DNA of 64,000 nt from Halarcobacter sp. (GTDB taxonomy: Bacteria; Campylobacterota; Campylobacteria; Campylobacterales; Arcobacteraceae). The DNA is taken from assembly GCA_030145305.1 (NCBI GenBank), contig JAQYVX010000003.1:186001-250000 (forward strand). The letters run 5' to 3'. Below the pieces are notes generated by a model. That model did no database searches and was not told the DNA's origin. It saw only the letters and a program-made list of their open reading frames with translations. The position numbers and the translations under genes are program-made. This document shows, piece by piece, positions 9,798-38,697 of this stretch (the stretch's first letter is position 1; each line of letters starts with the position of its first letter).

Positions 9798-10964
9798 TTA
9801 AAAAGAATAAGCAAGTGTAAAGTTAAGTTGGTTGTAATCAGAAACTTTAGATTTTGAATCTTCATTTACCACTGTATATCCTAAGTTAGCTTTTAAATTT
9901 TTTGTAACAGGATACCCTAACCATAAAGTAGTTTCATTCATTTTAAGTGAATCATTTCCAACATCATATTTAGTTTGACCATAAAGTAATGTAGCACTTA
10001 CGTCATAAATTGATTTAGTAACTCCAAGATAGAAAGTTTGAGCATCTTTACTGTAAACATAATCACCTTCTTCAAAAGGAACAATAATTTCACCAGTTCC
10101 TGTAGTATATCCTGGGAATGCAGCGTCATTATCAACTTTTATATATCCAGCATAAGGAGAGAATCCAGCAATTGTAGTACTTACCATTAAATCAATAAGA
10201 CTAGAATCATTTTTTGAATTATTGTCATCATCACTAACTGCATAATGAGCTCTAATAGAAGTATCACCAAATGTTAGGTTTGCTTTAGCACCATAAATAT
10301 CTTTTACATCAGGCATTACTAATCCATATGCAGTTGTAGAAATAGTATCATTGAATTTATGAGTAAGACCTAATTTATACACACCATCATTTTCATTAAA
10401 TTTAGTCATTGGTCTATAATCTCTTGAATAAACTCTACCTTGTCTTAATGACCAGATAGCTTCAAGTGAAGTATTTCCAAAAATTGCATCAATTTTTATT
10501 GCATCTTGAGTTTTATTAATCCAATCAGTTGAAATAAATTGTCTACCAGCTTTTACTGAAAAGTTTTTTAGATTATATGATAAAAATAATTCTTCTAAAT
10601 CAACTGATCTATTACTTCCATTTTTTTCATGAAATCTTTCAGAAGCATCACCTGTTCCCATAAAAGTTGTAGAGTTTTTGTCTTCTTCAAATATAGTTCC
10701 ATATGCTCTAAATTTAGAAGTTAAACTTAAGTTATTCCATACACCTGTTTCATATTTTAATGCAAATGAACCAACACTATATGCTGAATCACGATAATAT
10801 GTAGCACCTGGAGCCTCTTTATCAAAATTTCTGTTTTCATAAGTAGCTGCAATTTCACCACTTACTTTACCACTTGTTAAAGCTTCTGCTAAACTTTGTG
10901 CATTTGCACTACTGTATAAAGACACTGCAGCTACGACTGCTAAACCAACGTTAAACTTTTTCAT
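9798..10964 (-). CDS. Outer-membrane porin (Campylobacterota major OMP-like)
   Basis: A 388-residue exported protein. The signal peptide (MKKFNVGLAVVAAVSLYSSANA) is followed by SLAEALTSGKVSGEIAATYEN, the typical opening of Arcobacter and Campylobacter porins of the OprD-like group. The rest alternates short amphipathic beta strands and polar loops and ends NQLNFTLAYSF, with a terminal Phe as expected for an outer-membrane beta barrel. It should form a passive pore. It is monocistronic, with its own T-rich promoter and a double terminator. Pore selectivity cannot be told from sequence. Confidence 0.85.
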   Translation of the reverse strand: MKKFNVGLAVVAAVSLYSSANAQSLAEALTSGKVSGEIAATYENRNFDKEAPGATYYRDSAYSVGSFALKYETGVWNNLSLTSKFRAYGTIFEEDKNSTTFMGTGDASERFHEKNGSNRSVDLEELFLSYNLKNFSVKAGRQFISTDWINKTQDAIKIDAIFGNTSLEAIWSLRQGRVYSRDYRPMTKFNENDGVYKLGLTHKFNDTISTTAYGLVMPDVKDIYGAKANLTFGDTSIRAHYAVSDDDNNSKNDSSLIDLMVSTTIAGFSPYAGYIKVDNDAAFPGYTTGTGEIIVPFEEGDYVYSKDAQTFYLGVTKSIYDVSATLLYGQTKYDVGNDSLKMNETTLWLGYPVTKNLKANLGYTVVNEDSKSKVSDYNQLNFTLAYSF

Positions 10965-11015: not shown

Positions 11016-11050
11016 ATGATAAAACAAAAAAATCGCAAAAAAATCGAAAA
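11016..11050 (-). promoter_or_regulatory. Porin promoter with two CGA-T-tract repeats
   Basis: On the minus strand two copies of CGA plus a T tract sit 11 bases apart (11046 and 11035), and a TATCAT -10-like box starts 14 bases after the second (11021-11016). The same layout and spacings precede torA at 13301-13331. T-rich periodic upstream signals are typical of promoters in this phylum. Confidence 0.5.
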
Positions 11051-13191: not shown

Positions 13192-13300
13192 AGGGTTTCC
13201 AAATTGTTTTATTCATTATACTAAAAGTTTTGTTACATTACTTATATAATGTGTATATTTTAGAAAAATAACACAATATAAGTATAATTCTCTATTTATT

Positions 13301-13331
13301 CGATTTTTTTTCGATTTTTTGTTATTATAAT
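13301..13331 (+). promoter_or_regulatory. torA promoter with two CGA-T-tract repeats
   Basis: CGA followed by a T tract occurs at 13301 and 13312 (11-bp period), and a perfect TATAAT box at 13326-13331 starts 14 bases after the second repeat. An 11-bp direct repeat suits either a PhoB/OmpR-type regulator, which this operon encodes, or the periodic T tracts of housekeeping promoters in this phylum. Confidence 0.55.
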
Positions 13332-13360: not shown

Positions 13361-15766
13361 ATGAATAATTCAAGAAGAGATTTTCTAAAAAAAGGTGCTA
13401 TAGGAACAACAGCTGTTGCTTTAACTAGTACAAGTGGTGTTGCTGCCAATATATTGGAATCAAGAACAGTAAAAATTCCAAGTGCGTCTCACTTTGGTGC
13501 TTTTTATGCTCACGTTAGAGATGATAAAATTGTAGATATTACTTCTCAATTGGACTCTGATGCAAACCCTACAGTTATTGTAAAAGGTTTAGCTGATAGA
13601 AATAGTTCAAACTCAAGAGTGAAATATCCTGTTGTAAGAAAATCTTACTTAGAAGGAAAAGGTCGAGGTGATTTAAGAGGTAAAGAAGAATTCGTAAGAG
13701 TTTCTTGGGATACTGCACTTGACTTAGCTGCTAATGCTATTAAAAAAGCACAAAAAAAAGGTGGAAATGAATCTATTTATAATGCGTCGTATGGTGGTTG
13801 GTCACATCCAGGTGCTTTCAAGCCAAATGTTTTAGCTGGAAGATTCTTTAATCAAATTGGTGGTGCTATTGGAACTGCTGGTGAGTATTCAAATGGTGCT
13901 GCTGGTCCTGTTAACCCTTCAGTTGTGGGAGATATGGAAGTTTATTCTATTCAAACTGCACATGAACAAATCATTGCAAATACAGAAGTTATGGTTTTAT
14001 GGGGAGCAGATTTATATAAAACAAATAGAGTAGGATATTCTGTAGCAAACCATAGATGTTTTGATGCTTATGAAGAGTATAAAAAAGCTGGAATGAAAGT
14101 TATTTTAATTGACCCTATTTATAATACATCAGGTCAAGAATTCAATGCTGATTGGATTAAAATTAGACCAGGTTCAGATGTTGCTATGATGATGGCTATG
14201 ATGAATCATTTATATAAAACAGGTAAATATGATAAAGCATTTATTAAAAAATATACTCATGGTTTTGATAAATTTTTACCTTACCTTTTAGGAAAAACTG
14301 ATGGTATTGAAAAAACAGCTAAATGGGCAGAAAAATTAACAGAAGTTCCTGCTAAAACTATTGAGCAATTAGCTGAACTTATGGTTTCAAAAAGAACTAT
14401 GATCGCTGGAAACTGGGCAATGCAAAGAGCTGAACATGGTGAACAAGTGGATTGGTCTATTATTACATTAGCTTCAATGATTGGACAAATTGGACTTCCT
14501 GGTGGAGGTTTTGGTTTCTCAATGCATTATGAAGGTGGTGGTGATGCTGCTTCTGGAAAAAGAACTGTTGGAGGATTAAGTCAAGGTAAAGGTGGTGCTG
14601 TAAATCTTACAATTCCAGCTTCAAGAATGAGTGATTTAATTAATAAACCTGGACAAACAGTTACATATAAAGGTAAAACAATTACTTATCCAAAAGTTGA
14701 AGTTATGTTAAGTGCAGGTTGTTCTCCAATAGGACATCAACCAGATGTAAATGAACTAATTGAAGCGATGAGAAAATTAGACACTGTAGTTGTTATGGAA
14801 CCTTGGTGGACACCAACAGCAAAAATGGCTGATATTGTATTCCCTGCAACAACAACTATGGAAAGAGACGATATCTCAAGTGGTATGTCGTATTCAAATG
14901 ATAGAGTTTATGCAATGAAACAAATTGTAAAACCTAGATATGAATCAAAAGATGATTATGAAATCTTTACATTATTAGCAAAAAGATTTGGTACAGAGAA
15001 GAAATTTACAAGAGATAGAACACCAATGGATTGGATTGAAAGATTATATAAAAAATCATATGCAAAAAAAGATATGAATGTAACTTTTGAGAAATTCTGG
15101 GAAAAAGGTAGTGTTCATTATGAAATTCCAGCTAGTGCAAGAAAATATGTAAGACATGAAGCATTTAGAAAAGATCCTGTAAATAATGCGCTTAAAACAG
15201 AAACAGGAAAAATTCAAATTTTCTCTGATAAATTTGAAAATTATAAATATGAAGACTTTAAAGGTCACCCAATGTGGTTTGAACCAAAAGAGTGGTTAGG
15301 TAATGAAAAATTAGCAAAAAAATATCCATTACATTTAGTGTCTCCACACCCAACATATAGAATTCATTCACAAATGGATAATACATGGGTACAAAATGCA
15401 CATAAAGTACAAGGACGAGAGCCTATTAGAATTTCACCAGCTGATGCTAAAAAATTCGATGTTAAAGATGGAGAAATTGTAGAAGTATATAATGACAGAG
15501 GAAGTTTACTTGCTGGTGTTGTAGTTACTAAAACAATAAGAGAAGGTGTTGTAGCAATTGAAGAAGGTGCTTGGTATAGCCCTGAAGAAACTTCAAAAGA
15601 TAAATCAAGATGTAACTCAGGACAAGTTAATGTATTAACATCATCTAGACCAACATCACAAATGGCGAGTGCAACATCTGCAAACTCAACATTAGTTTCA
15701 ATTAGAAAAGCTAAGGTTGTTACTCCAAATGTAGCATATAATCCACCAAGAATTCAAGGAGCATAA
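13361..15766 (+). CDS. torA: Trimethylamine N-oxide / DMSO reductase catalytic subunit (TorA-like)
   Basis: An 801-residue periplasmic molybdoenzyme of the DMSO reductase family. It has a Tat signal (NSRRDFLKKGAIGTTAVAL). There is no N-terminal iron-sulfur Cys cluster, as in TorA/BisC/DorA. The SYGGWSHPG segment (about residues 145-153) holds the likely Mo-ligand Ser, with later pterin-binding signatures VMVLWGADLYKTNRVGY and GGGFGFSMHYEGGG, and a C-terminal dinucleotide domain (HPTYRIHSQMDNTWVQ). It reduces N- or S-oxides as terminal electron acceptors. Two bases downstream begins a monohaem cytochrome c that should be its electron donor, the arrangement known for Cj0264c-Cj0265c in C. jejuni. 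Exact substrate is inferred. Confidence 0.92.
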   Translation: MNNSRRDFLKKGAIGTTAVALTSTSGVAANILESRTVKIPSASHFGAFYAHVRDDKIVDITSQLDSDANPTVIVKGLADRNSSNSRVKYPVVRKSYLEGKGRGDLRGKEEFVRVSWDTALDLAANAIKKAQKKGGNESIYNASYGGWSHPGAFKPNVLAGRFFNQIGGAIGTAGEYSNGAAGPVNPSVVGDMEVYSIQTAHEQIIANTEVMVLWGADLYKTNRVGYSVANHRCFDAYEEYKKAGMKVILIDPIYNTSGQEFNADWIKIRPGSDVAMMMAMMNHLYKTGKYDKAFIKKYTHGFDKFLPYLLGKTDGIEKTAKWAEKLTEVPAKTIEQLAELMVSKRTMIAGNWAMQRAEHGEQVDWSIITLASMIGQIGLPGGGFGFSMHYEGGGDAASGKRTVGGLSQGKGGAVNLTIPASRMSDLINKPGQTVTYKGKTITYPKVEVMLSAGCSPIGHQPDVNELIEAMRKLDTVVVMEPWWTPTAKMADIVFPATTTMERDDISSGMSYSNDRVYAMKQIVKPRYESKDDYEIFTLLAKRFGTEKKFTRDRTPMDWIERLYKKSYAKKDMNVTFEKFWEKGSVHYEIPASARKYVRHEAFRKDPVNNALKTETGKIQIFSDKFENYKYEDFKGHPMWFEPKEWLGNEKLAKKYPLHLVSPHPTYRIHSQMDNTWVQNAHKVQGREPIRISPADAKKFDVKDGEIVEVYNDRGSLLAGVVVTKTIREGVVAIEEGAWYSPEETSKDKSRCNSGQVNVLTSSRPTSQMASATSANSTLVSIRKAKVVTPNVAYNPPRIQGA

Positions 15767-15768
15767 GT

Positions 15769-16320
15769 ATGAGAACAGTTTTACAAAAATTATTAATAAC
15801 ATTACTTGCAATGGGAAGTTTTTCCCTTGCAAGTGCAGGTGATGTTTTTATTTTCCAAACAGCAGATGTTAAAATTGATAATAAAAAAGCAACTGTTTAT
15901 ATTGGAACACCTGTTAAGGTTTTAAAAAATGTAGATGATAAAAATGCATTAATAGAGCTCTCAGGAATGGTTTTTGATAATAAACTTTTTATAAATAAAG
16001 ATAAATCATTATTACTAGCATCAGCGGAGAAAAATACTTTTGGAAAAAATGGTGAAGAAAAAAAACTTCAAGCTATTATTGAAAAAGGTTACTTAACAAA
16101 AAAGTCAGCTGAAGTTTGGGAAGAACACGAAGAATTCTTCTATGAAACGTGTACACAATGTCATGCTGCTCATGAACCATCTGAACATTCAATGTTAGAA
16201 TGGGATGCTATTTTAGCAACTATGAATGGTTTTGCTCAACTTGATGAAGAAGAAGCAAAGTATTTAGCAAGATATTTAAAAGCAAATGCAAATAATGGGT
16301 TTTATCAAAAGTCAAAATAA
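15769..16320 (+). CDS. Monohaem cytochrome c partner of the TMAO-reductase-like enzyme
   Basis: A 183-residue exported protein with signal peptide (MRTVLQKLLITLLAMGSFSLASA). The first half is a beta-rich domain without clear family. The C-terminal half carries one haem site, CTQCH at about residues 125-129, followed by a Met-rich stretch (MLEWDAILATMNG) and the cytochrome-like end EEEAKYLARYLKAN. It lies two bases after torA and is likely the electron-transfer subunit between the quinol pool and TorA, replacing the multihaem TorC of E. coli. It resembles the small c-type protein paired with the TorA-like enzyme of C. jejuni. Confidence 0.85.
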   Translation: MRTVLQKLLITLLAMGSFSLASAGDVFIFQTADVKIDNKKATVYIGTPVKVLKNVDDKNALIELSGMVFDNKLFINKDKSLLLASAEKNTFGKNGEEKKLQAIIEKGYLTKKSAEVWEEHEEFFYETCTQCHAAHEPSEHSMLEWDAILATMNGFAQLDEEEAKYLARYLKANANNGFYQKSK

Positions 16321-16351
16321 AGATTGATATAATAAGTAAAAAGGAGAGAAG

Positions 16352-17038
16352 ATGACAAAAAATGTAATTGAAAAACTACAAAATTTATCTCTTCTTTATG
16401 CTGAAGATGAAGTTGGAATTAGAGAAAATATTGCAGATTCATTAAGATATTATATAAAAGATGTTTATGAAGCAAAAGATGGAGAAGAAGCTTATGAGAT
16501 ATATCTGGAAAAAGAACCTGATATTATTTTAAGTGATATTCATATGCCAAAGGTAAATGGCCTTGAATTTGTAAAAAAAGTTAGAGAAACAAATAGAGAT
16601 ATTCCTGTTGTAATGATAACAGCACATACAGATAAAGAGTATTTACTTGAAGCTGTTGGTTTACATATGGAAAAGTATATTGTAAAACCTATAGATATAG
16701 ATGAATTATTTGAAGCTTTAGAAAAATGTGTAAGTCTTTTAGATTCAAATAAAAAAGTCTTATTAAAAGTTGATGAAGATTATATTTATGATTATGATTT
16801 AAAAGAGTTGAAATATAAAGATGAAAGAGTTATCTTAAATAAAAAAGAGATGATGTTTTTAGAAACTTTAATTTCAAATCAAAGTAGAGTTGTAACTTAT
16901 GATGAGTTACAAGAAAAAGTCTGGTGCGATGATGTTATGACTGATAGTGCATTAAGATCATTAGTAAGAAACTTACGAAAAAAACTTCCAACAGATTTAA
17001 TATTTAATCTTTCAGGAGTAGGATATAGGCTTGTTTAG
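16352..17038 (+). CDS. OmpR/PhoB-type response regulator
   Basis: A 228-residue two-domain regulator. The receiver has the acidic pair in YAEDE, the phosphorylated Asp in IILSDIHMPKVNG (about residue 60), the Thr in VMITAHT and the Lys in EKYIVKPI. The C-terminal winged-helix domain starts at about residue 140, with the recognition region TDSALRSLVRNLRKKL. It is 31 bases after the cytochrome gene and overlaps the next gene by 8 bases, so it belongs to the tor operon. It probably activates torA; the 11-bp repeat in the torA promoter is a candidate site. Confidence 0.9.
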   Translation: MTKNVIEKLQNLSLLYAEDEVGIRENIADSLRYYIKDVYEAKDGEEAYEIYLEKEPDIILSDIHMPKVNGLEFVKKVRETNRDIPVVMITAHTDKEYLLEAVGLHMEKYIVKPIDIDELFEALEKCVSLLDSNKKVLLKVDEDYIYDYDLKELKYKDERVILNKKEMMFLETLISNQSRVVTYDELQEKVWCDDVMTDSALRSLVRNLRKKLPTDLIFNLSGVGYRLV

Positions 17039-18674
17039 GCGAATACTTTTTTTTAATTTTTTTTTAGTGCTTACTTTATTAAATGCTAATAGTTTTAGAG
17101 AAGATGATTCTCAAACGAGAATTGCTAAACCTTTGCATCCAAAGTCTCATATAAAAATATTTTTACCCTCGATTCCTTATTCTTATATCTCAAAAAATAC
17201 AAACTCAGGATTGCTACGCTCGGCTGATAATAAACAAGGCTGGGAATATGATTTGGCAGAAGAACATAAAAGAATAGATGATTATACGTATATTTTTAAA
17301 ATAAGAAAAAACTTAAAATTTCAAGATGGAAGTTCTTGTAGTATTGATAATGTAATTAAAAATTTAGAGTATTTTAGAAAGTATCCACTTTTATACACTA
17401 ATATTGATAAAGTAAATTTTTCAATTAAAAAAATAGATAAGCATAGTTTTCAAATAAAACTTGAAAAAAAATATGAAATGTTTTTGCATGATTTAGCTAG
17501 GGTTTATTTTTATACAGATGAGTATTTAAAGAAATATAAACCAAAAGGTGGAGAAACAGGCTCGGCAAATAAAATAGCAGGTGCTTTTGGAATGGGACCA
17601 TATATTTTAAAAGAAGGTTTTGCAATTGGAAAAAAGCAAACTTCAAAATTAGAATTAGAAGCAAATCCTTATTATTGGAATAAAAAGTTTCCCAAAATAA
17701 AAAAAGTAAGTGTTTACACCCAATTAAAAGTAAGTGATGCTTTAGATTTGATTACAAAAGATGAAGGACAGCTTGATTTAATGCCCATTCCTTTTAACAA
17801 AAAGATTAATGTTTTAATGTCAAAATATTCAAAATTAATAATTAAAGAGTCTACAAATAATTTTTTAATCTTTTTTAATCAAATAAATGGAAATAAAAGT
17901 CTTGAAAATCAAGATATAAGAATTGCTTTAAATGAAGCTATTAACCAAGAAGATTTGTTAAATTTTGTTTATAAAAAAGAGGGGAAAGTTTCTCCTTTTT
18001 CTGCTTCAATTAACTATAAAGTTGTAAAAGAAGTTGCAAAAAAAGAAAAGTATAAAAAATATAGATTTTCTTTAGAAAAAAAGAAAGAACTTTTAGATGG
18101 TTTAGAATTAAATGTTTTTATTCAAGATAGATTTATTTTTTTATTCAAAGGAATTGAGTTTCAATTAAAAAAATATGGTGTTAAATTAAACTATACAATT
18201 ACAAGCAGTGAAAAAGATATTTATGAACAGTTATTAGCTACAAAAGCAAATAAAAATACCAAAAAATGGGATCTCTTAATATGGGGAGATGATGATTGGT
18301 ATTATCTAAATCCTTGGACTGTATTTTTTATTTATGAAAATGATTCACCTTGGTCAACAAGTAAAAATGATGAAATATTGAATGGCTATATTCAAGAATA
18401 TTTTGAAACAAAAATAGCTACAAAAGAGTATGAAAATATAGTAGAGAAGATACTCTGTAGAGCGAGAGAAAAGGCCTATACTCTTCGTGTGCCTTCTCCT
18501 AATAAAGTAATTGCCGTAAATAAAGAACTTATATACAAACCCTTAACAGGAGGGATGATACCTCTTTGGGCGATTGAATTAACAAAAGATCATTGGTCAA
18601 TTAGAGAAGAAAAAGAGTATCCAAAAAAATTACACATTCCAATTAAAACAAAAAGAATAAAAAATGAATTTTAA
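17031..18674 (+). CDS. SBP_bac_5-type periplasmic binding protein, possible sensor partner of the tor two-component system
   Basis: A 547-residue exported protein of the DppA/OppA fold (SBP_bac_5). After a signal peptide (FFNFFLVLTLLNANS) come domain-typical stretches: WEYDLAEEHKRIDDYTYIFKIRKN, the GMGPYILKEG turn, DIRIALNEAINQEDLLNFVY and WDLLIWGDDDWYYLNPWTVFF. The start is TTG at 17031, overlapping the response-regulator stop by 8 bases, and the end overlaps the kinase start by 11. No ABC permease or ATPase is nearby, so transport is unlikely and a ligand-sensing role with the kinase is inferred, by analogy with TorT (which is of a different binding-protein family). No lipobox is visible. 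Confidence 0.75.
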   Translation: MFRRILFFNFFLVLTLLNANSFREDDSQTRIAKPLHPKSHIKIFLPSIPYSYISKNTNSGLLRSADNKQGWEYDLAEEHKRIDDYTYIFKIRKNLKFQDGSSCSIDNVIKNLEYFRKYPLLYTNIDKVNFSIKKIDKHSFQIKLEKKYEMFLHDLARVYFYTDEYLKKYKPKGGETGSANKIAGAFGMGPYILKEGFAIGKKQTSKLELEANPYYWNKKFPKIKKVSVYTQLKVSDALDLITKDEGQLDLMPIPFNKKINVLMSKYSKLIIKESTNNFLIFFNQINGNKSLENQDIRIALNEAINQEDLLNFVYKKEGKVSPFSASINYKVVKEVAKKEKYKKYRFSLEKKKELLDGLELNVFIQDRFIFLFKGIEFQLKKYGVKLNYTITSSEKDIYEQLLATKANKNTKKWDLLIWGDDDWYYLNPWTVFFIYENDSPWSTSKNDEILNGYIQEYFETKIATKEYENIVEKILCRAREKAYTLRVPSPNKVIAVNKELIYKPLTGGMIPLWAIELTKDHWSIREEKEYPKKLHIPIKTKRIKNEF

Positions 18675-20328
18675 TATAAATATCAAGTTTAAGTTAGGAA
18701 TATTATTTCTAATTTTATGTATTTCTATAGCAATACTTGCCTATAAATCGATTAATATTAGTGAATATAATAAACAAACTTTAAAAACAATACATAGCAA
18801 ATCTCAAGAAATGTTATCTTTACAAGATAAGATTATTACACCTCTATATAGATTAAGAGAGTTAACTCAGTCATTAGTAATGGCCCCCAATAATAGTATT
18901 AGAAGGAATATTCAAAGAAGTTTAAATACACTTCAAATCTCACTTGAAAAAGAGTTTAAAGTCCTTGATCTTGAAAATACAGATTTATTAAATAAATGGG
19001 AAGTTTATAAGAAATTAACAAATGATACAATTAATTATTTAGAAGAAGAGTTTGAAGAAGGAGCTTATGTAAATGTTACTACTTTAAGTAGAACACAGTT
19101 TCATAAACTTTTGAAAGATTTATTAGAAATTCAAAGTAAATCTTTAAATAATTCTACCGTTGCCTATACAAAAGCTTCACAAGAAGCAAAAGAGATAAAG
19201 TTAGAAATCTTAATAGTAATAATTACTGTGTTAATTTTATCAACAATTATTGGATGGTTGATTTCTAGTAATATAATAAACTCAATACACACTGTACAAA
19301 AAGGGCTTAGAGATTTCTTTGAATATCTAAATCATAAAAAAGGTGATGTAAAAAGAATAGAAATTGCATCAAAAGATGAATTTTATGAAATGGCAGAGAT
19401 GATTAATGGAAATGTTTCAAATATAAAAGCAAATATAGAAGAAAATGAACAATTAATTAAAAATGCAACAAAAGTTTTAGAAGATATAAAAAGTGGAAAT
19501 TTAGGTTCAAGACTTACAAAAAAGAGTAAGCATGAAGCTTTACATGAATTAAAAATTATGATGAATAATATGATTGATAATCTAGAATTCAAAATTCAAG
19601 AACAAATTGATAAAAGATTAGAACAAGAACAACTTTTAATACAACAATCAAAATTAGCCTCAATGGGTGAAATGATTGGTAATATTGCACATCAATGGAG
19701 ACAACCTTTAGCAGAAATATGTGCAATTCATATGAATATGAAAGTTACTTATGATTTTGATAAATTCACAAAAGAGTACTTAAGTAAAAAAATGAAAGAG
19801 GCTAATACCTTAACAACTTATATGTCACAAACAATTACAGATTTTCAAAATTTCTTTAAACCACAAGGAGAAAAAGAAGAGTTTTCTGTAGAAAAAGCTT
19901 GTCGTGAGGCATTTTTTATTCTAGAATCTTCTTTAAAATATCACAATGTTGATACCACTATTTCAGTAGTTGAGGATTCAATTGTATTTGGATATAAAAA
20001 TGAGTATTCGCAAGTTATCTTAAATGTTTTAAGTAATGCAAAAGATATTCTAATAGAAAGAGAAATTAAAAATCCAGAAATTAAAATTGAAATAAAAACT
20101 GGCGATAATTTTGCAATAATAAAGATTCAAGATAATGCAGGTGGAGTAAAAGAAAATATTATAGAAAAGATATTTGATCCATATTTTACAACAAGACATA
20201 AAACCCAAGGAACGGGGATTGGACTTTATATGTCAAAAAATATAATTGAGCGAAATATGAATGGCTTTATAAATGTAAGAAATCAAGATAATGGAGCTTT
20301 ATTTACTATAAAAGTAAAAAAACAATAA
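18664..20328 (+). CDS. Membrane sensor histidine kinase of the tor locus
   Basis: A 554-residue kinase. Transmembrane helix 1 (about residues 8-26), a periplasmic helical domain (30-175), helix 2 (about 180-202) and a HAMP-like linker lead to a coiled coil and the phosphorylation segment MASMGEMIGNIAHQWRQPLA, with the His near residue 345. The ATP domain shows NVLSNAKDIL (N box), DNAGGVKENI and GTGIGLYMSKNI. The HQWRQP signature is common in Campylobacterota. Its start overlaps the binding-protein gene by 11 bases, so sensor protein and kinase are made together. It should phosphorylate the regulator encoded two genes upstream. Confidence 0.88.
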   Translation: MNFNINIKFKLGILFLILCISIAILAYKSINISEYNKQTLKTIHSKSQEMLSLQDKIITPLYRLRELTQSLVMAPNNSIRRNIQRSLNTLQISLEKEFKVLDLENTDLLNKWEVYKKLTNDTINYLEEEFEEGAYVNVTTLSRTQFHKLLKDLLEIQSKSLNNSTVAYTKASQEAKEIKLEILIVIITVLILSTIIGWLISSNIINSIHTVQKGLRDFFEYLNHKKGDVKRIEIASKDEFYEMAEMINGNVSNIKANIEENEQLIKNATKVLEDIKSGNLGSRLTKKSKHEALHELKIMMNNMIDNLEFKIQEQIDKRLEQEQLLIQQSKLASMGEMIGNIAHQWRQPLAEICAIHMNMKVTYDFDKFTKEYLSKKMKEANTLTTYMSQTITDFQNFFKPQGEKEEFSVEKACREAFFILESSLKYHNVDTTISVVEDSIVFGYKNEYSQVILNVLSNAKDILIEREIKNPEIKIEIKTGDNFAIIKIQDNAGGVKENIIEKIFDPYFTTRHKTQGTGIGLYMSKNIIERNMNGFINVRNQDNGALFTIKVKKQ

Positions 20329-20403: not shown

Positions 20404-20904
20404 ATGCAACAAGAAAAAACATTAGTTGATAAGATTTTAGCTTATATTTATATTTTGTCAAAACAACCATTGTTGTTAAGAGACTTATTAGATGCAAATA
20501 GACAATATAAAGAAGGAATGCATGTTGATCCTGCAAAACTAGGCTTTAGATTAAAGTTAAGTCGTGCTTATTTTGTTTATATATTAATAGTTCTTTCTAT
20601 ACTTATTCCTATCTCAGCACTAACACATAAACCTTTAGCAGGTATTGATTCACATATTTCTATTTTAGGTGCAATGGCGATAACTGCTGCTATCTTTATG
20701 GGATTTAATTTTTTTAGAGCTAAAATGAGAGATATAATTACATTAAGACAAATTAAAAAATCTTGGAAATTAAGATTTCCTTATTTCTCTTATGATGAAT
20801 ATAATCATAAAGTTGAAGAGATATATCTAAGAGCAATTAAAGAAGAGGTTTCAAAAAGAGATTTAGAAAAATATATTTTAGATAAATTGGTTATAGAAGA
20901 GTAA
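20404..20904 (+). CDS. Small two-helix membrane protein of unknown function
   Basis: I do not recognise this 166-residue protein. It has a charged N-terminal region (1-55), two membrane helices (about 57-77, YFVYILIVLSILIPISAL, and 86-105, ILGAMAITAAIFMGFNFF) separated by a short loop, and a long basic C-terminal cytoplasmic tail (HKVEEIYLRAIKEEVSKRDLEKY) with probable coiled-coil character. It starts 75 bases after the kinase gene behind its own ribosome site (TATAGGAAG) and ends in a convergent-type hairpin. Codon use is like its neighbours, and it reads as a genuine conserved-looking gene. Confidence 0.7.
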   Translation: MQQEKTLVDKILAYIYILSKQPLLLRDLLDANRQYKEGMHVDPAKLGFRLKLSRAYFVYILIVLSILIPISALTHKPLAGIDSHISILGAMAITAAIFMGFNFFRAKMRDIITLRQIKKSWKLRFPYFSYDEYNHKVEEIYLRAIKEEVSKRDLEKYILDKLVIEE

Positions 20905-31925: not shown

Positions 31926-32579
31926 TTATAAATCTGAAAGTTCTTTGATTAGTTTTACGGCATCTAAAGGGTTTTTTGCAATAAAAGTAGTATGCTCTTT
32001 TAATGTCTCTTCTTTTCCATATCCACATAAAACTCCTACTGAGTTTATTCCTGCTTGATTTGCAGCTATTAAGTCTAGTTCTGTATCTCCAATCATCCAA
32101 ATATCGCAAGTTTTTTTTATATTCATTAAATCTAATGTTCTATGAATTGGCTCAGGATGAGGTTTTGGGTGTTCCACATGTTCTCTTCCTGTAACATGTT
32201 CAAAATATTTCATAATATCCATATGTTCAAGAAGTTGCTCACTGTATATACCTGTTTTTGTTGTTACAATTGAAAGTCTTGCAAAAGTATTAGCTAATTG
32301 TACAGCCTCAAGTGCAAATTCTAATAAAGCAGTTTGTTGTTTTGAGATTTCTTTATATCTCTCTTTGTATGTATGAACATAGTCCCAAACAATTTCTTGA
32401 GGAATTCCAAGCTCTAAATACATAATATCTAAAGGATATCCTATTAAGGACTTAATATCTTCATCTGTTCCTTTAAAATCGTAATCCATTTTTTCAAAAG
32501 AGTGATGAAACGTCGAAACAATAGCATCAGTTGAATCAATTAGTGTTCCATCTAAATCAAAAAGAATAATTTTTTCCAA
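31926..32579 (-). CDS. HAD-superfamily phosphatase (phosphoglycolate phosphatase/PpaX-like)
   Basis: A 217-residue cytoplasmic HAD hydrolase. Motif I FDLDGTLIDST (residues 6-16) gives the nucleophile Asp, motif II is VTTKTG, motif III includes the Lys of HPKPHPEP, and motif IV is MIGDTELDLIAANQAG. The cap domain between motifs I and II is the helical type. Such enzymes dephosphorylate 2-phosphoglycolate, pyrophosphate or sugar phosphates; the substrate cannot be picked here. Gap to nifJ is about 220 bases, so it is probably transcribed alone. Confidence 0.82.
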   Translation of the reverse strand: MEKIILFDLDGTLIDSTDAIVSTFHHSFEKMDYDFKGTDEDIKSLIGYPLDIMYLELGIPQEIVWDYVHTYKERYKEISKQQTALLEFALEAVQLANTFARLSIVTTKTGIYSEQLLEHMDIMKYFEHVTGREHVEHPKPHPEPIHRTLDLMNIKKTCDIWMIGDTELDLIAANQAGINSVGVLCGYGKEETLKEHTTFIAKNPLDAVKLIKELSDL

Positions 32580-32663
32580 ATTCTTACCTTGTAGTATATT
32601 TAATATATAGTGTAATATATTATTGTTTATAATTGAATATACTCTCTTAATCTTTAAATATTC

Positions 32664-34172
32664 TTAGGGTTTTATCCAATCTTTTTGGTTGTGCATAATG
32701 CCTATAAAAGAGGGCTTTACATTTTTTATTGTATCATTAACAACAGAAATTGAATTTGGAATATATAAAAATAAATAAGGAATATCATCTGTTATTTTTT
32801 TAAAAATTTTTCTATAAATTGAACTTAATTCTTCTTTATTTACAGTAGTTGAACCTTGTTCAATTAATGAATCAACTTCTTTATTTTTATAACCTGTAAG
32901 ATTAAAACGTCCTAATTTATCAGAATCTGAATGCCATAAGGGATAAGCATCTGGCATTAAAGCAAGACTCCAAGCTAAAAGTACTGTTTCAAATTTTCTT
33001 GGATGTACAACTGTATTTAAAAATGCTTGCCATTCCATAACTCTAATTTTGACTTTTATACCAATTTTTGCAAGTTGATATTGCAAGATTAAAGCTGCAT
33101 TTATTCGTATTTCATTCCCTGTATTTGTAATAAGTTCAAAGGAAAAAGGATTGTTTTCATCATATCCAGCTTCTTTTAGAAGCTGTTTCGCTTTTTTTAT
33201 ATCTGGTTTTATTTGTTTGACTTCTTTATTATATGCAAAACTTCCAGGAAGAAAAGGACCATTACAAACCTCTCCATGACCAAAATACAGAATATCAACC
33301 ATCTCTTGTCTATTAATTGCTAAAGATAAAGCTTGTCTAACTCTTATATCTTGAAACTTTTTATTTTTTAGATTAAAGCCTAAGTAGGCGTAGCCAAAAC
33401 TTGGCTTTTCTATTATTTTATAATCTTCTTTAAATTTATCATCTATTTGCCTATCAATTTGTAAAGGACTTAATGCGCCCACATCTAATTGTTTTTGTTT
33501 TAACATTAAAAAGGAAGTTGTAGTATCAGGCAAGAATTTATAATTAATGAAATCTATTTTGGGTCGGCCATCAAAGTAATCGTCATTTGCAATAAGTTTT
33601 ATATCTGAGGAGTTTTTAAAAGATTCGAGCTTATAAGAACCCGTGCCTATTGGATTTTTATTAAATGAACTACTCATTATATCTTTTTCATTTTCTAAAA
33701 TATGTTTTGGCAAAATTCCTACCATCCAAATCTCTAAGGCCTTAAAATATGCTTTTTTATAAATAACTTCAATTGTATAATCATCTAAAGCTTTTACGCT
33801 TTTTACTTCTTTATAATTTGAAAGAATAGAGGTAAATACTTTGGGATTAATAATTGTATTGTAAGTAAAGATTACGTCTTGTGCTGTAAATTTCTTTTTA
33901 TCATGCCAAAGTACATTTCTTTTTAATTTTATAATTAATTTGGTGCTATTTTCAAACTTATAAGAAGAAGCTAAATCGGGGGTTGGATTACCATCTTTAT
34001 CATATTTAAAAAGACCATTAAAAAGCCATTTAGCTATATCTCCACTTGCAGAATCATTTGCCAAAATTGGATTTAGTCTACTAGGACTTGAACTCATAGA
34101 TAAATTTAGAGTTGAAGAAAAAGAGACGCTTATTGATATGATAAATATAAATAAAAGTTTTAAAGATTTCAT
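32664..34172 (-). CDS. Stand-alone peptide/nickel-type periplasmic binding protein (SBP_bac_5)
   Basis: A 502-residue exported protein with signal peptide (LKLLFIFIISISVSFSS). Family hallmarks are LNPILANDSASGDIAKWLFNGL, the PDLASSYKF and LKRNVLWHDKKKFTAQDVIF segments, IGTGSYKLESF and VRQALSLAINRQEMVDILYFG. It resembles DppA/OppA/NikA-like proteins. No permease or ATPase is adjacent, so its transporter must be elsewhere or it has another role. The mature N terminus does not carry a lipobox. Ligand specificity is not predictable. Confidence 0.82.
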   Translation of the reverse strand: MKSLKLLFIFIISISVSFSSTLNLSMSSSPSRLNPILANDSASGDIAKWLFNGLFKYDKDGNPTPDLASSYKFENSTKLIIKLKRNVLWHDKKKFTAQDVIFTYNTIINPKVFTSILSNYKEVKSVKALDDYTIEVIYKKAYFKALEIWMVGILPKHILENEKDIMSSSFNKNPIGTGSYKLESFKNSSDIKLIANDDYFDGRPKIDFINYKFLPDTTTSFLMLKQKQLDVGALSPLQIDRQIDDKFKEDYKIIEKPSFGYAYLGFNLKNKKFQDIRVRQALSLAINRQEMVDILYFGHGEVCNGPFLPGSFAYNKEVKQIKPDIKKAKQLLKEAGYDENNPFSFELITNTGNEIRINAALILQYQLAKIGIKVKIRVMEWQAFLNTVVHPRKFETVLLAWSLALMPDAYPLWHSDSDKLGRFNLTGYKNKEVDSLIEQGSTTVNKEELSSIYRKIFKKITDDIPYLFLYIPNSISVVNDTIKNVKPSFIGIMHNQKDWIKP

Positions 34173-34283
34173 GTCTTAATTCTAGTGATTTTTAAATAAA
34201 GAACATCTTCAAATAAGAATCTTTATTTTAAAAGAAGTTAGACAACTTCCTAACAAATAAAAATTCTTTTTAATTTAAATGAG

Positions 34284-34330
34284 AATTAAAACAACAGTCT
34301 CTAACAATTAGAGAAGTTGCTGTTTTAATT
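34284..34330. terminator. Long imperfect hairpin downstream of the torD-like gene
   Basis: Outer arms AATTAAAACA (34284-34293) / TGTTTTAATT (34321-34330) and inner arms TCTCTAA / TTAGAGA (34298-34304, 34308-34314). It falls just after the last gene of the molybdoenzyme operon. The T tract is better on the plus strand, so its use as an operon terminator is uncertain. Confidence 0.4.
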
Positions 34331-34337
34331 TTTATAG

Positions 34338-34964
34338 TTATTTTACTTTTTCTAAAAAAAGTTCTTCTTTTTTCATTATATCTTGTATAAATGAGCCTAA
34401 TTCTTTTAAAACTTCTTGTTTAGAATTGATTATAATATCTTCACTAAATTTATTAATCCAAGTTTTAGGATGATTATCAAAAAACTCTTTTCTTGTTTTA
34501 AGTAAGCTATTTACTTCTATCATATTACCCGTTTTATATGACTCAATTATCAATAAAGACATACAATAAAGGTATTGAAATTCAAAACCTATAAAATCAT
34601 CAGGAAAATGATTTAATTCTTCAACTTCTATTCCCACTTGAGAGTAATACTCCCTTACTTGGTAAGTAAACTCTCTCATAAGTAGGTTTTCATCTGATCT
34701 ATAAGACGATTCAAAGGGAATAGCTAAAGGTTTTTGTGGTCCTATAAATAATCTGTTATAATCCCATCTTGCCTCATCTAGCATATCAGCTTGTAATTTT
34801 TCAAGCAATTTAATAAATCTAATATCTTTCATATCTATACTCAAATTACTAGATTTTTGTTTTAATGAACCTATTGTCTCTTCTGTCCATTGGTTAAAAA
34901 AAAGTTCTCTTAATAAATCATAGGCTTTGGCTAGATCTTCGCAATCTTTAACTATATTTTTCAT
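34338..34964 (-). CDS. TorD/DmsD-family molybdoenzyme chaperone
   Basis: A 208-residue, almost all-helical cytoplasmic protein of the TorD family. Characteristic stretches are DEARWDYNRLFIGPQKPLAIPFESSYRSDE (the family's core, about residues 78-107) and FPDDFIGFEFQYLYCMSLL. These chaperones bind the Tat signal of a molybdoenzyme and hold it until cofactor insertion. It is the last gene of the molybdoenzyme operon, 10 bases after the cytochrome b gene, so its client should be the catalytic subunit encoded at 36306-38633. Confidence 0.85.
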   Translation of the reverse strand: MKNIVKDCEDLAKAYDLLRELFFNQWTEETIGSLKQKSSNLSIDMKDIRFIKLLEKLQADMLDEARWDYNRLFIGPQKPLAIPFESSYRSDENLLMREFTYQVREYYSQVGIEVEELNHFPDDFIGFEFQYLYCMSLLIIESYKTGNMIEVNSLLKTRKEFFDNHPKTWINKFSEDIIINSKQEVLKELGSFIQDIMKKEELFLEKVK

Positions 34965-34974
34965 CTTTGATTCC

Positions 34975-35697
34975 TTATTTTTCTTCTATTTCGTCTTTTA
35001 TTATTTTTTGTTTTTTTAGTCTTTCGTACCAATAAATATGATGTTCTTTAACATGATCAATACTCATCTCTCCTGTTTGGAACATTGCTTTAAATGCAGG
35101 TAAATTTGATGGTAATAATGCAAAAATAACATGTATTATCAAAATAATTCCTAGCATAATAAAACTAAAAGAGTGAAGAGTACCTATAAACTCAGCATCT
35201 CTTAATGATAAAGCACCCGCATTTGCACTTTTATAAACTAAAATAAATCCTGTAACTATTAATGCTGTAACAAAAAAATACATAGCCCAAGCTGATGCTT
35301 TTTGTCCCATATTATATTTACCAAACTTTGCTGGTTTATTCTCGATATAATGCAATTTCATTTGTTTAATACCATCTATAATTGCTTCTACACTCCATTT
35401 TTCAGGCCAGATACTTAATTCTTTTAGTCTTCTTAGCATTACTATTGCAAAAATCAATGATGTTATTGCTAGTAAAAACCCACTTACCCAATGTAATGTT
35501 CTAAAAATCATTAGTCCCGTTACTAAAGCTTCGTTGTTCTTTAATACTATACTTGCTGGATAACCTACATAATAGGCTAAAAAGCTAAATGTTTTAGAAA
35601 AAAATGGCAATCCTGTTATTATTAAAGTTATAGTTTGTATTAATATAAACTTGTGAGTTGTCATTATCAACGGATGATACGCTTTTATTGTTTTCAT
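34975..35697 (-). CDS. Cytochrome b membrane subunit (FdnI/DmsC-role)
   Basis: A 240-residue membrane protein with four or five helices, of the formate-dehydrogenase-gamma / cytochrome b561 type. Helix histidines that could bind haem occur in LIMTTHKFILIQTITL (about residue 15), RTLHWVSGFLLAITS (about 70), GTLHSFSFIMLG and IHVIFAL in the C-terminal half. It should exchange electrons between the quinone pool and the ferredoxin subunit. It replaces the NrfD/DmsC-type anchor found in classical DMSO reductases. Gaps of 10 and 21 bases place it firmly in the operon. Confidence 0.8.
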   Translation of the reverse strand: MKTIKAYHPLIMTTHKFILIQTITLIITGLPFFSKTFSFLAYYVGYPASIVLKNNEALVTGLMIFRTLHWVSGFLLAITSLIFAIVMLRRLKELSIWPEKWSVEAIIDGIKQMKLHYIENKPAKFGKYNMGQKASAWAMYFFVTALIVTGFILVYKSANAGALSLRDAEFIGTLHSFSFIMLGIILIIHVIFALLPSNLPAFKAMFQTGEMSIDHVKEHHIYWYERLKKQKIIKDEIEEK

Positions 35698-35718
35698 TAT
35701 TTTTCTCCCACTTATAAG

Positions 35719-36294
35719 TTAAATTTTTATTGAAAATTCTTTTCTTTTCATACCTGTTACAAATTTTGGATAAAATCGTGTTGATGGTACATAAGAATTT
35801 GCTTCAAATCCAACAACTTCTTTTTCCATACCCGCTCTATCTGCTAAATCTGTCTCAATAATACTTAAAACAGCCATAGGACAAGCTCTTACACAAGCAG
35901 GAAGTTCTCCTATATCTAGTCTTTCAGTACACATATTACATTTTTGTGCTTTACTTTCTTTACCCACCATAGTTATGGCATCATATTCACAATTTTGAGC
36001 ACAATAGCCACAACCAATACATTTATCTCTATCTAATTCTACTATTCCATCTTCTCTAACCGTATAAGCCTCAGCTGGACAAACTTCAGCACAAATTGGA
36101 TTTTCACAGTGATTACATGAATGTGTTAAAAATACACTTTTTAACTTATTATTTTCAGTTACTTCATATTCATCAACTTTCCTCCAATTTATTTCTGGTT
36201 CTTGTTTATGATAAGTTTGACACGCAACTTCACATGCTTTACAGCCTATGCAAAAATCTTGATCAAATAGGAAACTTTTTCTTAACTTTTTCAT
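35719..36294 (-). CDS. Four-cluster ferredoxin electron-transfer subunit (DmsB/PhsB-like)
   Basis: A 191-residue iron-sulfur protein with four Cys clusters: CIGCKACEVAC (residues 16-26), CNHCENPICAEVCP (about 60-73), CIGCGYCAQNC (about 91-101) and CNMCTERLDIGELPACVRACP (about 119-139, in two parts). This pattern matches DmsB/NrfC/PhsB-type subunits carrying four [4Fe-4S] clusters. It has no signal peptide and would be exported with the Tat-bearing catalytic subunit. It is 11 bases after that gene and passes electrons from the cytochrome b subunit to it. Confidence 0.9.
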   Translation of the reverse strand: MKKLRKSFLFDQDFCIGCKACEVACQTYHKQEPEINWRKVDEYEVTENNKLKSVFLTHSCNHCENPICAEVCPAEAYTVREDGIVELDRDKCIGCGYCAQNCEYDAITMVGKESKAQKCNMCTERLDIGELPACVRACPMAVLSIIETDLADRAGMEKEVVGFEANSYVPSTRFYPKFVTGMKRKEFSIKI

Positions 36295-36305
36295 TTTATA
36301 CTCCT

Positions 36306-38633
36306 TTATACTTTTTCAACTTCAATAAATGTCGCAGTATACGTTGAACCTTGACCTAGGTCACTAATACCATCACTACATAAAATATTGGCCCCTGTAT
36401 CTGTCTTTGTCGTTCTACACCATATATTATTCCATGCATATGTAACACCAGGATTCATATCAGTTGTAATTCTAACTCTAAAGAATGCTTTACCTTTTTC
36501 ATTTACTCCTGAAACAACTGTTCCTTCTTTTATACCTCTTGCTTGGGCATCTTTTTTATGCATAAATAATTCTGGGTAACCATCGAATAACACTCTTGGT
36601 AAAATATATTTATTTGTTCCCCAATTTGAATTATTTTGTAATTGTGTTCCTGGAGTCATAAAATATAATGGATATTTTTCCAAATATTCTTTTCCAAATT
36701 CTTTATGTGCTTTATAATAATCCCAATCTGTATCAAGGTCAATAACTGGATGGAATCCTGAATCTTTAAAGTATTGAGAATAAAGTTCTGCTTTTCCAGA
36801 TGGTGTTTTAAATTTAAGCTCTGTTTCTGGACAATATGGATAGTAAGGGAAATGTTCTTTCATTGAGTCAACTGTTCTAATAGGTTTTACTTGACCCTCT
36901 TTTACTAATCTTTCATAAGTAATGCCTTGCATTTTACTAAAAGGAGTATCTATCATATTTTTTATAATTTCTTTTGGATCATTAATATTAAAACATTCTT
37001 CTTTATATCCCATAGCTTTTGCAATACCATTGAATATTTCTAAATTAATTTTACTTTCACCAACTAGTCTAGCTGCTGCCGCGTTATAACAAACATAGCC
37101 AGAAATTTGATCATTTTGAACATCTTCAGATTCTAAAAAAGTCCCTGCTGGTAATACTAAGTCTGCATAATCAACAGTATCTGTATGAAAAGGATCTAAT
37201 ACAATTAAATAAAAATCATCATCTTCCATTAATCTTTTTTTAATTAAATCAGAATTTGGTGCAGTTGTCATCATACTAGTGTTGAAATGGATAACTGCTC
37301 TTAATGGTGTAGGAAGAGTTACTTCTTTATAAACTTGAGATTCTGTATCTAAACTTGTTGGATTATCAAGTTTTAATGCTCCACCAAATTGGACATAATT
37401 TGCAGTTTGTCTTTTAATAGTCTCTCCATTTTCATCTTTTGGTGATAAATCAGGCATAACATTACTGAAATTATAACATGGACTTAAATTTGTATATGCC
37501 CAAAATAATCCAGCACCTTTTTTATTTAAGGCCCCAACTAAAACAGGTAAAAAAGTAACTGCTCTAACAAGTCTAGCTCCATTAAAATGTCTCTGACCTC
37601 CGTCACCATGAGCAATAGCAGGTCTTTTTGCTGCTGCATATATTCTTGCAAATTCAACTATTTCTTCAGGTGTAATTTCACATGCTGTTGCTAGTTCTTC
37701 TAAGGTATATTCTTTAGTTTCTTTTACTAAATCTTCAAATCCCATTGCATATTTAGATACAAATTCTTTATCATATAAATTCTCTTCAATAAGTACTTTA
37801 CATACACCTAAACAGAAGAATGGATCTGTTGAAGGTTTTAATTGTATAAACATATCTGAATTGTTTGCCATTGGTGTTCTAACAGAATTAATTGTAACTA
37901 ATTTTCCACCATTTTTTCTTCTTACATCTTGTCCAAATCTAGCCCAGTGAACAGCAGTATATGCTTCATTTGAACCCCATGTAATATATAAATCTGAGTC
38001 AACTGTTTCAAGCATATCTTTTGAATATGGCGTACCAATAACACTTGGAGTACCTTGATATCTTGGCCAATCACAAGGATTTCTAACTAATCTTGTTGCT
38101 CCAATTTTTTCAAGTAAATTACCTGGACCTACTGTTTTTGAGATATGTCCTTCATTCCCAGAATAAACCATTTCACCAATAGCTTCACCACCATATTTAT
38201 TTTTAATATCAGTTAATTTTTTTCCTGCTAATTCAAAAGCTTCATCCCAAGAAATTCTTTCCCATTTACCTTCTTTTCTTTTGCCTACTCTTTTCATAGG
38301 ATACAAAATTCTATTTGGTTGGTATAAGTATTCTCTATAAGTATTACCTTTTACACAAGGATGACCTTTTGTAACAGGATGTGATTTATTTCCTTGTATA
38401 TCTATCATCACACCATTTTGTACTTCTGCAACTAAAGAACATGCATCTCTACAATTTCTTGGACAAGTTACAAAATGATATTTAGAGGCACCATTTGTTT
38501 GGGTAGGTTTATGATCTACTTTGTCATACTTTGTAGATGTATATGACATTCCAAATAGTGGCACACTAACTAAACAAGCTGTAGTCCCTTTTAGAAAACT
38601 TCTTCTGCCATTATTAATATCTAAGGCTCCCAT
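36306..38633 (-). CDS. Tat-exported molybdopterin oxidoreductase catalytic subunit (DmsA-like, substrate unknown)
   Basis: A 775-residue catalytic subunit of the DMSO reductase superfamily. I chose ATG 38631-38633 because AAGGAG lies seven bases before it; the frame is open 15 codons further upstream but without a ribosome site. The Tat signal is GRRSFLKGTTACLVSVPLFG. An N-terminal [4Fe-4S] site CPRNCRDAC plus a later GHPCVKG Cys follows, as in DmsA. The segment expected to hold the Mo ligand reads NPCDWPRYQG (near residue 185), with Cys and Asp rather than the Ser of DMSO reductase. Sulfur, selenium or N-oxide substrates are all possible. Operon partners supply ferredoxin, cytochrome b and chaperone. 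Confidence 0.85.
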   Translation of the reverse strand: MGALDINNGRRSFLKGTTACLVSVPLFGMSYTSTKYDKVDHKPTQTNGASKYHFVTCPRNCRDACSLVAEVQNGVMIDIQGNKSHPVTKGHPCVKGNTYREYLYQPNRILYPMKRVGKRKEGKWERISWDEAFELAGKKLTDIKNKYGGEAIGEMVYSGNEGHISKTVGPGNLLEKIGATRLVRNPCDWPRYQGTPSVIGTPYSKDMLETVDSDLYITWGSNEAYTAVHWARFGQDVRRKNGGKLVTINSVRTPMANNSDMFIQLKPSTDPFFCLGVCKVLIEENLYDKEFVSKYAMGFEDLVKETKEYTLEELATACEITPEEIVEFARIYAAAKRPAIAHGDGGQRHFNGARLVRAVTFLPVLVGALNKKGAGLFWAYTNLSPCYNFSNVMPDLSPKDENGETIKRQTANYVQFGGALKLDNPTSLDTESQVYKEVTLPTPLRAVIHFNTSMMTTAPNSDLIKKRLMEDDDFYLIVLDPFHTDTVDYADLVLPAGTFLESEDVQNDQISGYVCYNAAAARLVGESKINLEIFNGIAKAMGYKEECFNINDPKEIIKNMIDTPFSKMQGITYERLVKEGQVKPIRTVDSMKEHFPYYPYCPETELKFKTPSGKAELYSQYFKDSGFHPVIDLDTDWDYYKAHKEFGKEYLEKYPLYFMTPGTQLQNNSNWGTNKYILPRVLFDGYPELFMHKKDAQARGIKEGTVVSGVNEKGKAFFRVRITTDMNPGVTYAWNNIWCRTTKTDTGANILCSDGISDLGQGSTYTATFIEVEKV

Positions 38634-38697
38634 AATATTTCTCCTTCTTCTCTTTCGTGAAATTAAATACTTCTTCAATTAAGAAGAAGTATCTTTA

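Follow-up and report, generated by a model that had tools for sequence, protein, structure and literature searches.

A transport-free SBP_bac_5 protein as a probable periplasmic co-receptor for N- or S-oxides in Halarcobacter

Introduction

In a contig of Halarcobacter sp. (Campylobacterota; Arcobacteraceae; JAQYVX010000003.1) the gene of a substrate-binding protein (SBP) of the family SBP_bac_5 lies between the genes of a response regulator (RR) and a histidine kinase (HK), behind those of a periplasmic reductase and its cytochrome. What does a member of a transport family do at this position? We analyzed a stretch of 64,000 nucleotides of this contig (positions 186,001 to 250,000 of the forward strand; hereafter the window) together with related loci. 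The results make it probable that the SBP is a dedicated periplasmic co-receptor, which presents an N- or S-oxide to the kinase, with the RR activating the reductase gene run and a porin. An earlier note on this DNA had already placed a DppA-fold protein in the periplasmic sensing role. This proposal is supported along several independent lines: by RR-SBP-HK trios without permeases, by the predicted fold, by the decay of the kinase tip where the SBP is absent and by an operator of 11-bp repeats.

Results

The gene run in the window consists of five genes.

13361..15766, plus strand: periplasmic N-/S-oxide reductase of the TorA/BisA type (Tat signal SRRDFLK; Ser in the Mo-ligand column)
15769..16320, plus strand: monohaem cytochrome c, electron donor, C-terminally TorC-like, of the Cj0265/BisB kind (one CTQCH motif)
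16352..17038, plus strand: OmpR/PhoB-type RR (Pfam Response_reg and Trans_reg_C)
17031..18674, plus strand: transport-free SBP_bac_5 sensor protein, cluster C, DppA-like fold (Pfam, predicted fold)
18664..20328, plus strand: membrane HK with a periplasmic four-helix bundle (Pfam HATPase_c, AlphaFold2 (AF2) model)

The coordinates of the open reading frames and the Pfam matches agree with the gene order of the earlier note, and the same coordinates reproduce its overlaps among the last three genes (8 nt between RR and SBP, 11 nt between SBP and HK). Pfam recognized Molybdopterin, DHC (weakly), Response_reg with Trans_reg_C, SBP_bac_5 and HATPase_c in the five proteins. The SBP gene has a TTG start and its product a signal-like segment at the N-terminus; the protein scored 111.5 bits against PF00496 (cut-off 32.4), in a match that spans residues 73-356 only. 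The kinase has 554 amino acids (aa) and HATPase_c as its sole Pfam domain, with no receiver or HPt domain.

Co-occurrence of RR, SBP and kinase across genomes had been named in the earlier note as a check on the sensor role. We examined a phylum sample of 298 Campylobacterota genomes, 22 of which hold the SBP (31 loci read), and a family sample of 104 genomes with 32 holders (29 loci read); six genomes occur in both. The trio is kept in 31/31 homologous loci of the first sample and in 29/29 of the second, which lifts the link between SBP and kinase above chance. The host genome (3.03 Mb; nearest named relatives Arcobacter, Malaciobacter and Poseidonibacter) has four SBP_bac_5 genes; three of these, the window SBP and two paralogues, are each members of their own trio. 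In locus L026 of the phylum sample two tandem SBPs precede the kinase. A tandem SBP pair also lies inside one trio of genome G146 (L082:7576-10756), each copy being ~42% identical to the window SBP; this trio is a possible two-ligand sensor.

Does the SBP have a transporter partner? As the earlier note stated, there is no ABC transporter gene in the neighbourhood of the run; on the contig, the closest permeases of the BPD_transp_1 type lie ~31 kb away. No permease partner was found beside any trio examined in the two samples or beside any of the four SBP_bac_5 genes of the host genome. Orthologues with permeases of their own, which the earlier note had named as evidence against sensing, were looked for in the trio loci and none was found. 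The only ABC operon near a trio, that near trio 2 of the host genome, carries its own PBP_like_2 binding protein. The SBP could still be an ordinary component of peptide or metal uptake that came into the operon by accident and works with a permease encoded elsewhere: it exceeds the Pfam cut-off of a transport family, orphan SBPs are able to serve distant permeases, and the genome has 26 BPD_transp_1 matches. However, the RR-SBP-HK order is invariable in dozens of loci, with translational overlap in the window, and no permease stands beside any trio; furthermore, a methyl-accepting chemotaxis protein (MCP) replaces the HK in Vibrionaceae and the kinase tip is lost together with the SBP (see below). 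An uptake function of this kind is very improbable, and we rejected it as the main role of the SBP because no permease lies near any locus.

Next we consider the kinase. Its periplasmic four-helix bundle was predicted by AF2 with a pLDDT of about 80-94, while the full-length model has a pTM of 0.36. Two motifs mark the membrane-distal tip of the bundle.

18841..18891, plus strand: first distal-tip motif PLYRLRELTQSLVMAPN, kinase residues 60-76 (from conservation)
19051..19065, plus strand: second distal-tip motif FEEGA, kinase residues 130-134, retained in 47/47 kinases that have an SBP and lost in SBP-less relatives

For the tip, conservation reaches 0.90 in residues 63-76 and 0.83 in residues 128-143, compared with 0.90 for the DHp region, 0.75 for proximal helix 1 and 0.47-0.64 for the parts of helices 2-4 that lie outside the tip. 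Every class of the system described below shows the motifs P..LRE..SLV..PN and FEEGA(Y/F), and a FEEGA-type motif occurs in 29/29 loci of the family sample. A search with the kinase periplasmic domain found 41 places in 25/298 genomes, among them four kinases without an SBP in the operon (G061, G207, G256 and G261); the genomes G207, G256 and G261 have no close member of the SBP family anywhere. Residue F130 is invariant in 47/47 SBP-bearing kinases and is D/Q/D/Y in the four SBP-less ones; E132, likewise invariant in 47/47, is L/E/K/K. The core of the SBP-less kinases is still 65-81% identical to that of SBP-bearing relatives. In G261 the whole tip is gone (17-23% identity versus at least 57% in comparable SBP-bearing pairs), and in G256 and G207 the departure is confined to the FEEG loop. 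The change of the tip where the SBP is absent supports the tip as its dock; judged by these sequence patterns, it is the likely docking site.

The SBP-less relatives retain RR, kinase and operator, which means that the RR/kinase pair can act without the SBP. This favours a scheme in which the kinase senses alone, by ligand or redox via its bundle, and the SBP scavenges or modulates, for instance as an inhibitor. A precedent is the Vibrio protein CBP, the best single-sequence match of the SBP in the PDB by E-value, which acts on ChiS and negatively controls chitin signalling (PMC10667598). Such a scheme would alter only the sign of the SBP effect, however, leaving its sensing role in place, and the tip changed in the SBP-less lineages as if the input had been rebuilt. 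We regard a self-sensing kinase as unlikely; negative control like that in CBP-ChiS is, by analogy, a serious alternative for the sign. The gene of the SBP-less kinase of G261 shares its run with genes of a Peripla_BP_2 protein, of a permease and of an ATPase, ahead of the reductase gene (L098:8183-13009); this set perhaps serves molybdate or metal uptake or provides a replacement input.

If the SBP is a co-receptor, which enzyme does it serve? We compared the 47 full-length SBPs from wide Campylobacterota loci plus the window for their proximity to reductases. A gene of the DMSO reductase family is present within ~7.5 kb of the SBP everywhere except in L069 (the one in L032 is cut by the contig end). 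The host genome has only 12-13 molybdopterin enzyme genes in its 3.03 Mb, and a random gene would be expected to have such an enzyme within 7.5 kb in roughly 6% of cases.

The loci fall into classes according to their enzymes. Class A, which includes the window, has the TorA/BisA-type reductase with a monohaem cytochrome. Class B combines a NarJ/TorD-like chaperone, a molybdoenzyme of 758 aa whose Mo-ligand column holds Cys and a DmsB-like iron-sulphur protein; this Cys-ligated enzyme is probably not a reductase of trimethylamine N-oxide (TMAO). Classes C, D and F have other bisC-family enzymes with TorC-like monohaem cytochromes, and the enzyme of class E passes the cut-off as a true DmsA. 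In the SBP tree members of one class cluster strongly, with 9 changes of label compared with 34.3 in shuffles. A strict equation of SBP class with reductase class was rejected, since two class-B enzymes go with SBPs of the class-A clade.

The earlier note had called the reductase torA; it scores below the curated TorA cut-offs (714.5 versus 1465 and 752.8 versus 909 bits). It also just misses the cut-off of bisC_fam (983 versus 1017.55 bits), which class-C and class-D relatives pass, and has Ser in the Mo-ligand column (GEYSNGA). The broader name, N-/S-oxide reductase of the TorA/BisA type, is therefore the safer one. The cytochrome c matches the C-terminal part of TorC with 46.7 bits, and the RR reaches 65.5 bits against the TorR model (cut-off 275).

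A pair of repeats precedes the reductase gene, and a second copy precedes a porin gene.

13299..13321, plus strand: operator, perfect tandem 11-bp repeats TTCGATTTTTT-TTCGATTTTTTG, ending 39 bp before the reductase ATG
11026..11048, minus strand: second operator copy TTCGATTTTTTTGCGATTTTTTT upstream of the porin, 61 bp from its gene
9798..10964, minus strand: Opr-family outer-membrane porin, predicted member of the regulon (NCBIfam NF033923, 554.9 bits, cut-off 150)

A TATAAT/TATACT-like -10 hexamer abuts the last T-run of the operator. The operator starts 60-66 bp before the ATG, with an exact core in 12/14 class-A reductase upstream regions and a variant in the other two. When the whole genome (3.03 Mb) was searched with up to 3 mismatches, only two matches were obtained, before the reductase and before the Opr porin, and the reversed control gave 0. 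The element also occurs before class-B reductase operons, before the porins of clusters c5 and c13 and before the reductase-less trio L069; other classes have 11-bp repeats of their own (GCCATTTTTTC, CCAATTTTTTT and CTCATTAATTC). In several relatives, porins of cluster c5 lie close to the reductase gene, in most cases divergently oriented. A scan for consensus promoters gave no excess over shuffles. We infer that the RR of the trio binds the 11-bp repeats; by analogy, the geometry of repeats and -10 hexamer would fit PhoB-type activation over the -35 region.

Which ligand could the SBP bind? Its AF2 model (pLDDT 84) falls among DppA, OppA and NikA in Foldseek and VIA-align comparisons (Z 27-31). 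The alignment with 1dpp covers 444 residues (VIA-align Z 29.3, root-mean-square deviation 3.1) and gives a three-part fold of the DppA/OppA type. The C-lobe carries a signature that depends on the class.

18282..18305, plus strand: SBP C-lobe signature WGDDDWYY, residues 418-425 (class-dependent)

It reads WGDDDWYY in most of class A, WGNDDWSS in B, mostly QxTQDWYG in C and WGNEDWYG in D. A C-lobe profile found no match among PDB sequences at E 0.5, the hhalign alignment to Escherichia coli DppA ends at residue 358, short of the C-lobe, and the pLDDT is < 50 at residues 422-424. For these three reasons pocket residues could not be assigned from sequence, and D421/R367 are a lead only.

This lead bears on the nature of the ligand. 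The SBP may be a sensor of something peptide- or amino-acid-like, such as methionine sulfoxide or an oxidized peptide, and couple the reductase to the repair of oxidized methionine. SBP_bac_5 proteins are mostly peptide binders, D421/R367 may match by strand pattern the dipeptide-contacting D436/R383 named in the title of the DppA structure, and the related BisA of C. concisus repairs methionine sulfoxide residues of proteins (PMC10653797). This match by strand pattern is tentative, however, given a C-lobe without PDB sequence match and an hhalign alignment that stops before it, and R367 varies within class A, where L040 has K and L041 has S. We consider this reading rather unlikely as a whole; in view of the fold, methionine sulfoxide or a peptide-like oxide is nevertheless a serious alternative to TMAO. 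TMAO, dimethyl sulfoxide, methionine sulfoxide and a peptide-like oxide are all putative ligands, the TMAO of the earlier note included.

Grimontia, Enterovibrio and one Shewanella also possess a relative of the SBP, with 45-50% identity. In the eight intact Grimontia/Enterovibrio loci (L045-L052) its gene immediately precedes that of a dCache-HAMP-PAS-MCP chemoreceptor, and neither an HK nor a permease is present; its position directly before the MCP makes the SBP again part of a sensor. These SBPs share the WGDDDWYY signature with class A, a sequence likeness that hints at a common ligand. SBP and MCP are a candidate receptor for SBP-assisted chemotaxis to oxides.

Several neighbouring arrangements were also observed. 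A second molybdoenzyme operon in the window (31926-38678, minus strand) encodes a DmsA/Psr-like subunit whose Mo-ligand column holds Cys, an iron-sulphur subunit, a cytochrome b and a TorD-like chaperone; the fourth SBP_bac_5 of the genome (Opp4A-like, 32664-34172) follows 165 bp after it, without permease. In L062 (host genome, C38) and L073 the trio adjoins, in back-to-back orientation, another reductase system, made up of dCache-HK, RR, cytochrome c and TorA-like enzyme (the dCache was recognized in L062); it looks as though similar enzymes had two ways of sensing side by side. A small predicted secreted protein of 117-173 aa, family unknown, is always located 3' of the class-B iron-sulphur subunit (L061:14347-14700 and cluster c25 in L070-L078). 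A 166-aa protein without family match (window 20404-20904, plus strand; cluster c14) is encoded 3' of the kinase and conserved there in about nine relatives.

Discussion

The system resembles TorT-TorS-TorR of Escherichia coli, in which a periplasmic binding protein, a helical-bundle kinase and an OmpR-type regulator also adjoin a TMAO-type reductase and docking is presumed to occur at the membrane-distal end. TorS, a hybrid kinase, has additional domains for a phosphorelay, whereas the window kinase has HATPase_c only. TorT belongs to another SBP family (TIGR02955), which has 0 matches in the host genome under conditions where the E. coli control matched; this ruled out a TorT homologue elsewhere in the genome. 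The suggestion of the earlier note that the sensor evolved separately fits a genome without TorT and an SBP of a different family.

A second parallel is found in the arsenic-oxyanion sensors AioXSR, ArxXSR and ArrXSR, where three-gene modules of SBP, kinase and regulator adjoin a molybdoenzyme, sister modules lie beside different enzymes and the SBP stands outside any transporter (PMC5908839). AioX is PhnD-like and the output runs via RpoN promoters (PMC5908839), whereas the window has SBP_bac_5, its sole Pfam match with no PhnD-like domain, an OmpR/PhoB-type RR and no NtrC-type regulator. The system in the window functions like TorT-TorS-TorR and AioXSR and is a member of neither. In the CBP-ChiS system of Vibrio a cluster-C SBP, among the nearest solved structures by sequence, also controls a histidine kinase; unlike the window SBP, CBP is in addition an uptake SBP, exerts negative control and has no link to a reductase (PMC10667598). 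Cj0264c/Cj0265c and BisA/BisB of Campylobacter likewise pair a periplasmic reductase with a monohaem cytochrome c (PMC10653797, PMC4178425), but reductases of this kind elsewhere in the phylum sample (53-62% identical) have no adjoining SBP trio. At least 13 SBP families are known to drive receptors (PMC9602780) and, with CBP-ChiS, this means that the principle of an SBP acting on a kinase is already known. We found no description of this trio in the open-access papers searched, where the SBP family, the link to a reductase and the transport-free state appear undescribed.

In the mechanism that we propose, the SBP would bind an N- or S-oxide in the periplasm, or else a compound that closely marks its presence, and once loaded would dock on the membrane-distal tip of the kinase four-helix bundle. 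The kinase would then phosphorylate the OmpR-type RR, which would bind the tandem pair of 11-bp repeats at the -35 region in a PhoB-like manner and turn on both the run from reductase to HK and the outer-membrane porin, a putative entry route for the substrate.

Some observations weigh against this co-receptor mechanism. The tip losses in G256 and G207 probably go back to a single event, giving about three losses in total, and the divergence of the tip in SBP-less kinases may be a general relaxation of a changed sensor. The four-helix bundle is not diagnostic: the fold search returned TorS (Z 12.8), XylFII-LytSN (Z 12.9) and unrelated bundles too, and Z values under about 13 are common for bundles. 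The trio of L069 has no reductase nearby. Furthermore, the SBPs of L061 (host genome) and L042 adjoin class-B enzymes with Cys in the Mo-ligand column; their nesting within the class-A clade means that trios were re-paired with enzymes, so that there is no one-to-one match between ligand and reductase.

A wider proposal, which we put forward tentatively as quite possible, is a family of transport-free SBP_bac_5 co-receptors, in which one scaffold has been retuned to several N- and S-oxides (classes A-F, with differing C-lobe signatures and 11-bp operators) and plugged into either four-helix-bundle kinases or the dCache chemoreceptors of Grimontia and Enterovibrio. If this is true, the same class of ligand drives respiration and taxis.

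The co-receptor system offers a testable candidate for the sensing of N- and S-oxides in these bacteria, to which belong a predicted operator, a regulon of two sites, one of them at a porin gene, and a single loop of the kinase. The SBP-less kinases are a natural experiment on the docking between SBP and kinase, and the sister systems would be useful for finding residues of ligand specificity or for building biosensors. More folds of binding proteins would then have been recruited as respiratory sensors.

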